From NCBI GenBank assembly GCA_015272155.1, contig JACYME010000127.1, positions 1-34,515 of the forward strand: a stretch of 34,515 nt of DNA. The letters are read 5' to 3'. This document shows positions 33,335 through 34,515 of this stretch, in pieces. This DNA comes from Leptolyngbyaceae cyanobacterium T60_A2020_046 (GTDB taxonomy: Bacteria; Cyanobacteriota; Cyanobacteriia; Phormidesmidales; Phormidesmidaceae). Below the pieces are notes generated by a model. It did not search any database. It worked only from the letters and a program-made list of their open reading frames with translations, and was not told the origin of the DNA. The stretch's first letter is position 1. The number at the start of each line of letters is the position of its first letter. The translations under genes and the position numbers were made by a program.

Positions 33335-33391
33335 CGTCGTGATCGGGTGTTACAGCAGTGAAAAGATTTTGCTACGATAGCAAGTCTATAC

Positions 33392-33516
33392 GGGGAATTA
33401 GCTCAGCTGGTAGAGCGCTGCATAGGCGTGGACGAAGTCCGTCTGAAAGACGTAGCCTGGCCGAAGGTCATTCGCACCGCAGAGGTGCGACGCCGCGCAG
33501 CCCGTCGATAAAACCT
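33392..33516 (+). pseudogene. Broken tRNA-Ala copy with structured insert
   Basis: Bases 33392-33421 are identical to the 5' half of the intact tRNA-Ala that follows. At the anticodon stem the sequence changes into a 50-base insert (33422-33471). It then resumes with 15 bases shared with the intact copy's anticodon-loop/3'-stem region (33472-33486), and diverges again for 30 bases. The T arm and 3' acceptor are missing, so it cannot make a normal tRNA. The inserted part contains three short hairpins with GAA loops and one 6-bp hairpin, all enclosed by GGCGT/ACGCC and GCTGC/GCAGC pairings. Confidence 0.7.
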
Positions 33517-33589
33517 GGGGAATTAGCTCAGCTGGTAGAGCGCTGCGATCGCACCGCAGAGGTCAGGAGTTCGAATCTCCTATTCTCCA
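33517..33589 (+). tRNA. tRNA-Ala (anticodon CGC)
   Basis: A complete 73-base cloverleaf. The acceptor GGGGAAT/ATTCTCC includes a G3-U70 wobble, the alanine identity element. The D stem is GCTC/GAGC. The anticodon stem CTGCG/CGCAG encloses the loop ATCGCAC, giving anticodon CGC (33550-33552). The variable loop is AGGTC and the T arm AGGAG/CTCCT holds TTCGAAT. CCA is not encoded. A HIP1 octamer (33545-33552) forms the end of the stem and the anticodon itself. Confidence 0.93.
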
Positions 33590-33718
33590 TTCTCTCAAAC
33601 CCATACGGGCCAAGGGCTGTATTGCCCATCAACAGGTTGACTCAGAGCCTTGCTGAGTTCCTGGGACTAGACGCTGTTATGCCACTTTTGGCCATTTTGG
33701 TTAGAATTTGGATCGAAA

Positions 33719-34417
33719 TTGGATCGAAAGATTCCTCGATCCATTCGAGCCATTCTCCAGAGGTCTTTCACCATAGCCAACGCTGCTAGAGCTAAGAAGG
33801 GCACTGTCTCGGTGATCAGTGACCGAGATCGGTTGCGTCTGGGCTGGCGTTACAAAGGGGAACGCTATTTTCTGTTTATCGGGCTCCCTGACACCGTCAC
33901 AAATCGGAGAGTGGCCGAGGCCAAGGCGTCTCAAATAGAACTCGACATGATGTCAGGGCATTTCGATCCAACGCTTCGAGCCTATAAATTGCAGCTTCCC
34001 AACCGCAGCCAGCTGAGTGTCATCGGCCTATTCAACAAATTCATCCAGCACAAATCAAAGACAGTCGTTTCGACCACCCTAGATAAATACCGTGGACTGC
34101 TGAATTATTTGGAGGAATTCTTTAAGACTCGTTCGGTTTCTGAAGTTAGCATAGCAGAGGCCGAAAAATTCACCAGCTGGTACGACTCTCAAGATTTATC
34201 CAAGGTTGTCATTCGAGAGCGTCTGGGCCTTTTGAAGGCGTGCTGGGAATGGGGAATTGAGCAGGCTTTAGTTGAGTCTAATCCTTGGGTAGATATGCCT
34301 TTAAGAATTAAGGTTCCGCCAAAACAAATGCCTAAGCCTTTCACCGAGGCAGAAATCAAATCAATCGTTGAGGCGTTTAAAGCTAACCGTTATTATCGCC
34401 GCTACTTATTTGCATAA
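33719..34417 (+). pseudogene. Truncated tyrosine integrase
   Basis: A phage-type integrase N-terminal part of 232 codons. About residues 25-80 form an arm-site DNA-binding domain (LRLGWRYKGERYF, YFLFIGLPDTV). About 95-185 form the SAM-like core-binding domain (LDKYRGLLNYLEEFF to LGLLKACWEWGIEQ), ending at ESNPW and FTEAEIKSIVEAF. The catalytic domain with R...HxxR...Y is absent: the frame ends where the repeat of a putative insertion sequence begins. The start shown is a TTG; an 11-base unit, TTGGATCGAAA, is tandemly duplicated there (33708-33729), so the true start is uncertain. Codon and base use are more AT-rich than the core genes, and HIP1 is absent. Its position 130 bases after tRNA-Ala is typical of a tRNA-targeting island. 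Confidence 0.82.
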
Positions 34418-34515
34418 CTTCGGCACCCAGTTGCATCAACTTCGGCACCCCCTCAGAGGATGAGGGAAAAACGGCATAGATGGGCAGGTCAAATTCATTA
34501 TGCCGTCTGCGGATA
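34411..34515. mobile_element. Probable insertion-sequence end (continues beyond window)
   Basis: Two direct repeats, TGCATAACTTCGGCACCC (34411-34428) and TGCATCAACTTCGGCACCC (34432-34450), share the core AACTTCGGCACCC with a 22-base period, about two helical turns. They begin exactly where the integrase frame is lost. Paired subterminal repeats beginning TG are what transposase-binding ends such as those of IS21-like elements look like, but the family is not established and the transposase lies outside the window. Confidence 0.55.

Follow-up and report, generated by a model that had tools for sequence, protein, structure and literature searches.

Nested SDR5-type repeats in a duplicated 5' half of tRNA-Ala(CGC), directly upstream of the intact gene, in a Leptolyngbyaceae cyanobacterium

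The window, the whole stretch of 34,515 nucleotides analysed here from the cyanobacterium T60_A2020_046, contains an intact tRNA-Ala(CGC) gene that is directly preceded by an interrupted copy of its own 5' half. The identification of the insert as a nested SDR5-type repeat at the HIP1 site of the duplicated half is well supported by the features of its sequence. The best explanation, with a probability of roughly 0.7, is that the locus carries a tolerated scar of mobile DNA in a 3'-truncated tandem copy of tRNA-Ala(CGC), which would be turned over via a 30-bp repeat and read as part of the pre-tRNA leader. The features of the locus are as follows.

33373..33378 (+): putative -10 hexamer TACGAT of the tRNA promoter, assigned by conservation only; 13 nt separate it from the half-copy
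33392..33421 (+): nucleotides 1-30 of tRNA-Ala(CGC) in a second copy (5' strand of the acceptor stem, D-arm, first part of the anticodon stem), 30/30 identity with 33517-33546
33423..33470 (+): outer SDR5-type element, interrupted by the inner element (33423-33428 plus 33453-33470, together 24 nt), located where HIP1 is opened in the anticodon loop
33429..33452 (+): second SDR5-like element of 24 nt, TGGACGAAGTCCGTCTGAAAGACG, nested in the loop of the first hairpin of the outer element
33471..33489 (+): anticodon-arm remnant (loop, 3' strand of the stem, variable loop), forming the perfect hairpin P3, CGCACC-GCAGA-GGTGCG; TCGCACCGCAGAGGT as in the intact tRNA
33490..33516 (+): spacer up to the intact gene, different between genera; AAAACCT abuts the tRNA
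33517..33589 (+): intact tRNA-Ala(CGC) (ARAGORN; Rfam RF00005, 66.2 bits)
33545..33552 (+): HIP1 site GCGATCGC of the intact tRNA, identified by sequence; it extends from the anticodon stem into the loop and shows the SDR5 insertion point in its uninterrupted state

The initial annotation described an exact repeat of the tRNA-Ala 5' half, and indeed all 30 bases of 33392-33421 agree with 33517-33546, while the bases on either flank differ. The hairpins that it listed were also found: GGAC-GAA-GTCC (33430-33440), GTCT-GAA-AGAC (33441-33451), GGCC-GAA-GGTC (33459-33469) and CGCACC-GCAGA-GGTGCG (33473-33489), together with the closing stems GGCGT/ACGCC (33425-33429 and 33490-33494) and GCTGC/GCAGC (33417-33421 and 33497-33501). 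All of these stems are present in the predicted minimum-energy fold of 33392-33516 (-45.2 kcal/mol). Its remark that three GAA loops are unlikely by chance agrees with a simulation: when the window was regenerated 300 times with a first-order Markov model, no such trio starting within 30 nt appeared; the three loops arise because one 24-nt element is nested in another of the same layout. The intact tRNA starts at 33517, and the single feature of that description is better split into a half-copy, nested repeats, a palindromised anticodon-arm remnant and a spacer. After the matching stretch TCGCACCGCAGAGGT, the remnant reads GCG where the intact tRNA has CAG, and this GCG completes the P3 hairpin; most relatives carry the equivalent GCACCGnnnCGGTGC hairpin. 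The half-copy does not form a complete cloverleaf, as the T-arm and the acceptor 3' strand are absent. Neither ARAGORN nor Rfam calls it, and both report only the intact tRNA (33516-33590); interrupted tRNA copies thus go unreported by the annotation tools used here.

The SDR5 repeat is described as entering HIP1 between nucleotides 3 and 4 (PMC4390886, citing Elhai 2008). Partial copies in the relatives, many of them single-insert units, read GCG-[24 nt]-ATCGC against the uninterrupted GCGATCGC of the intact tRNA; therefore, the intact gene is an empty-site reference for a precise 24-bp insertion, and the insertion point GCG|ATCGC is that of SDR5. The flanks of the half-copy in the window are GCA...TTCGC rather than GCG...ATCGC, which is one substitution in each HIP1 flank. 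The 24-nt element consists of two hairpins with three-base loops. The outer element is identical at 18/24 positions to a 24-nt sequence written from dispersed HIP1-embedded copies. A nested copy also occurs in genome G027 (TTGACGAAGTCTGTCTGAAAGACG); with TGGACGAAGTCCGTCTGAAAGACG, the ungapped identities to the same dispersed-copy-derived sequence are 15/24 and 17/24. The nested pair in G027 differs from that in the window by several substitutions, and single elements are found in G001 and G022.

Copies away from the tRNA locus were also found. The HIP1-embedded two-hairpin pattern is present in 52 of the 65 same-family genomes, and the reversed-pattern control gave 0. In the genome of the window itself, C225:7391-7422 is an exact copy, and the weaker ones include C156:2959-2990 with 2 mismatches. 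When this genome was searched with a covariance model derived from 25 units found in other genomes, the window unit ranked first (E 1.3e-14), followed by C225 (2.7e-8) and C156 (6.6e-6), so that copies dispersed within the genome, as described for SDR5, are present. As its first possibility, the initial annotation had named a duplicated tRNA entered by a small dispersed palindrome such as those described in filamentous cyanobacteria; the insertion point in HIP1, the 24-bp two-hairpin design and the dispersed copies all argue for it. The nesting of two elements, the place of the unit between the likely promoter and the gene, and its recurrence and tandem arrays in relatives go beyond that annotation. 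The SDR5 identity is drawn from insertion site, size and architecture, compared with the description of SDR5 in PMC4390886. No account of SDR5 in a tRNA leader emerged from the literature searches, whose reach did not include the original SDR paper, and the literature searched gave no description of the mechanism by which SDR5-type repeats move into HIP1. With the intact tRNA next to it, the interrupted copy can be compared directly with an empty site to see how such a repeat enters.

The tRNA-Ala(CGC) locus was read in 44 same-family genomes. The unit was defined as the tRNA 5' half, the SDR5-type insert and a short tail, directly upstream of the intact gene; some of the unit counts depend on contig ends (G014, G027, G070). 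At least one unit, in some cases decayed, was found at 24 of the 44 loci, remnants only at 3 and none at 17. Tandem arrays occur in G008, with eight units of 104 bp, in G063, with three of 77 bp, and in G077 and G085, with two each. The window architecture precedes tRNA-Ala(CGC) in 23 other same-family genomes, and one genome from a different family has it as well. The initial annotation had held that the insert might be a random scar if no other copies existed, and copies do exist in the own genome and in relatives. A random scar without relatives has next to no probability: the 125-bp unit as a whole is indeed present only once in its genome, but its architecture recurs in the genomes just mentioned, and a third family has a related copy downstream of the tRNA; this recurrence rules the idea out.

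Only G097 and G187 matched outside the family in a class-wide sample of 390 genomes. G097, which belongs to another family, has an upstream array of five units, each about 76 bp, and G187 (Petrachloros, the third family) has copies of the downstream type. Six sister species of G097 were read, and all have a syntenic empty site with the same flank, in which the promoter region lies straight against the tRNA. The initial 64 bases of the first G097 unit equal the outermost unit of G063, including the rare flank CCACTCGC. Because of this match, the sequences suggest that the G097 array was acquired by horizontal transfer.

The upstream copies retain the 5' half, and the downstream copies mostly the 3' half, often with extra 24-nt T-loop inserts; a few near-complete exceptions exist (G001, G007). 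Downstream copies with a further 24-nt repeat-like T-loop insert include L176 (G001), L183 (G007), L038 (G029), L027 (G009) and L061 (Petrachloros). The T-loop insert sits at TTCG|AA and is apparently reversed. In some downstream copies, a folded-back anticodon arm stands in place of the 5' part.

The position of the insert bears on the idea that splicing of an intron-bearing or split tRNA yields a second tRNA-Ala. The anticodon loop is the classical intron position, and the downstream copies in G001 and G007 retain both halves. However, the window copy lacks the T-arm and the acceptor 3' strand, and the inserts of 24-48 nt are far below group I size; moreover, the downstream copies of the relatives hold the further T-loop insert. 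The 48-nt insert of the window contains no catalytic core of group I size, and Rfam gives no intron match. A group I intron or spliced tRNA, which is extremely improbable, was rejected on account of size, the missing 3' half and the lack of an Rfam match.

The half-copy could also be the leftover attachment site of an integrative element that targets tRNA-Ala(CGC), which is very unlikely. The N-terminal part of a tyrosine recombinase is encoded just downstream (33719-34417), several genera have similar 3' flanks, and 3'-half copies occur elsewhere in some genomes. Attachment sites of the tRNA type are expected as a 3' half, like these extra copies, with the crossover in the gene; the repeated part in the window is the 5' half. 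Units are also present next to a different 3' flank, for example in G008 and G097. The attachment-site remnant was rejected on these two points, the repeated 5' half and the units without the island flank. The recombinase part (33719-34417, + strand; Arm-DNA-bind_2 and Phage_int_SAM_5) lies directly 3' of tRNA-Ala(CGC) and ends near acttcggcaccc repeats (34418-34460), which resemble an IS end. Extra tRNA-Ala(CGC) 3' halves with flank, away from the gene, are found at G019:C18:47644-47701, G034:C2:172101-172160 and G025:C14:47063-47115, and these resemble the attachment-site ends of islands.

The history of the unit was followed in the half-copies and in the flanks. At loci with units, copy and gene agree at the variable sites; site 16 is C/C or T/T in nearly all of them, and G084 has a private T at site 25 in both. 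Such shared private states are as expected from repeated exchange or duplication of the 30-bp repeats. A locus tree was reconstructed from the 1.3-kb upstream flank of 17 syntenic loci, with a midpoint root for drawing only. Units occur on both sides of this root, and the unit-free G073, G074 and G082 are sister to the remnant-bearing G011 and G034. The distribution suggests that the unit is ancestral and was later lost in some lineages. Neighbours in the tree can differ in their SDR5 allele (G025 and G068, G063 and G071); therefore, the insert has also been replaced over time.

The preferred explanation is a mainly tolerated scar and not an evolved regulator. A tandem copy of tRNA-Ala(CGC), truncated at its 3' end, is opened at its anticodon-loop HIP1 palindrome by a 24-bp SDR5-type repeat, into which a second SDR5-like repeat has inserted. 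Position, insertion point, nesting, dispersed relatives, the location behind a conserved promoter-like hexamer, recurrence, tandem amplification and the substitutions shared by copy and gene can be read from the sequences; the further steps would be as follows. The 3' remnant may have become a perfect hairpin by quasi-palindrome correction. The number of units would rise and fall as the 30-bp direct repeats slip or exchange unequally, and this would keep the 5' half gene-like and always regenerate an intact tRNA. Exchange via an upstream 5' half or a downstream 3' half regenerates the intact tRNA in this scheme; only these two layouts would survive, because the opposite homology would create a dead gene. 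Transcription would place the unit in the pre-tRNA as its 5' leader, which RNase P would cut off.

The placement of the unit behind the promoter is consistent with the last step. In most loci, whether they carry units or not, a TAnnnT hexamer precedes the first tRNA 5' half by 10-14 nt; at the unit-free loci, the distance to the tRNA is mostly 11-14 nt. The unit occupies the place that the tRNA has in the empty-site relatives, behind the same promoter-like sequence. Since the hexamer stands at about equal distance before the tRNA or before the first half-copy, the unit lies between the likely promoter and the gene. From this arrangement, the 5' leader of the pre-tRNA is expected to include the unit. 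A generic scan for sigma-70 promoters and terminators returned nothing at the half-copy, the TACGAT hexamer included.

The same placement is compatible with a selected leader RNA, in which the hairpins, or pairing of the spare 5' half with the intact 3' half, would tune how tRNA-Ala(CGC) matures or how much of it is present, the number of copies acting as a rheostat; this is unlikely, though less so than the other alternatives. The unit is kept across genera despite the available precise deletion, and its hairpins covary, with 28 cells changed on both sides. In the two SDR5 hairpins and the third (anticodon-arm remnant) hairpin, 91.4% of cells are paired, and the covariation score of the three is 0.220 against 0.079 in shuffles (0/500). 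Compensatory changes, the absence of which would have spoken for a random scar according to the initial annotation, thus occur among the units of the relatives. The double changes are mainly two allele classes of hairpin 1 (GGC/GCC and CCC/GGG) together with changes in hairpin 2. However, the stem differences are largely differences between SDR5 alleles, which are variable elsewhere in the genomes too. Covariation does not itself show RNA-level selection here because different repeat alleles are compared, and it was rejected as proof of RNA function, since paired changes in SDR5 alleles occur genome-wide. The double changes point to maintenance of the palindrome in the repeat and not necessarily to an RNA function at this locus.

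The nearest-neighbour fold of the window's 199-nt precursor lets the half-copy capture the intact 3' half (-77.3 vs -71.2 kcal/mol). Capture is favoured likewise in 17 genomes, in a comparison that carries low weight, as it was biased by the D-stem being forced on one side only. These two-dimensional energies ignore tertiary contacts and co-transcriptional folding. Little weight is placed on the predicted capture in the 199-nt precursor because the model contains neither tertiary contacts nor kinetics. Several units are decayed or reduced to remnants, and 17 of the 44 same-family loci are unit-free, which also argues against a selected leader RNA. A regulatory role of the unit is possible, as are the two other ideas of the initial annotation, a structured RNA using the tRNA 5' half and competition for tRNA processing. 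In a somewhat less likely variant, the unit of tRNA-Ala 5' half, SDR5 and hairpin might be a horizontally mobile cassette, in which the 5'-half homology would place the unit between the promoter and tRNA-Ala(CGC), the unit would be amplified, and its copy number would tune maturation.

Three observations weigh against a tolerated SDR5-type scar. The long persistence of the unit is odd, because the 30-bp direct repeat could delete a neutral unit precisely, the regularity of 5' halves upstream and mostly 3' halves downstream could reflect function, and each HIP1 flank in the window has a substitution. The arrays pose the question of why a broken tRNA half is kept for long, in up to eight copies, though the 30-bp repeat allows clean deletion.

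Compared with known systems, the window element is closest in its described features to SDR5 (Elhai et al. 2008, as summarised in PMC4390886). Both are very short palindromes between nucleotides 3 and 4 of HIP1 and are dispersed in the genome; the window element differs from SDR5 as summarised there in that it lies in the anticodon loops of tRNA-Ala(CGC) duplicates, is nested in itself and, together with the tRNA half, is amplified into tandem leader arrays. 'Group I introns' of 22-49 nt have been reported in the anticodon loops of three cyanobacterial tRNAs (PMC5733544). Like the window unit, these are short inserts at the anticodon loop of a cyanobacterial tRNA; however, they lie in single genes for Arg, Gly and Lys, whereas the window has a half-copy beside an intact Ala gene and an SDR5-type insert. 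Judging by their size, the reported inserts might be small repeat insertions rather than introns. The REP/GTAG repeats and REPINs (PMC3733652, PMC3116915), compared through the literature only, are likewise short dispersed palindromes that alter host loci, but they have other tags and other hosts, and no HIP1 target.
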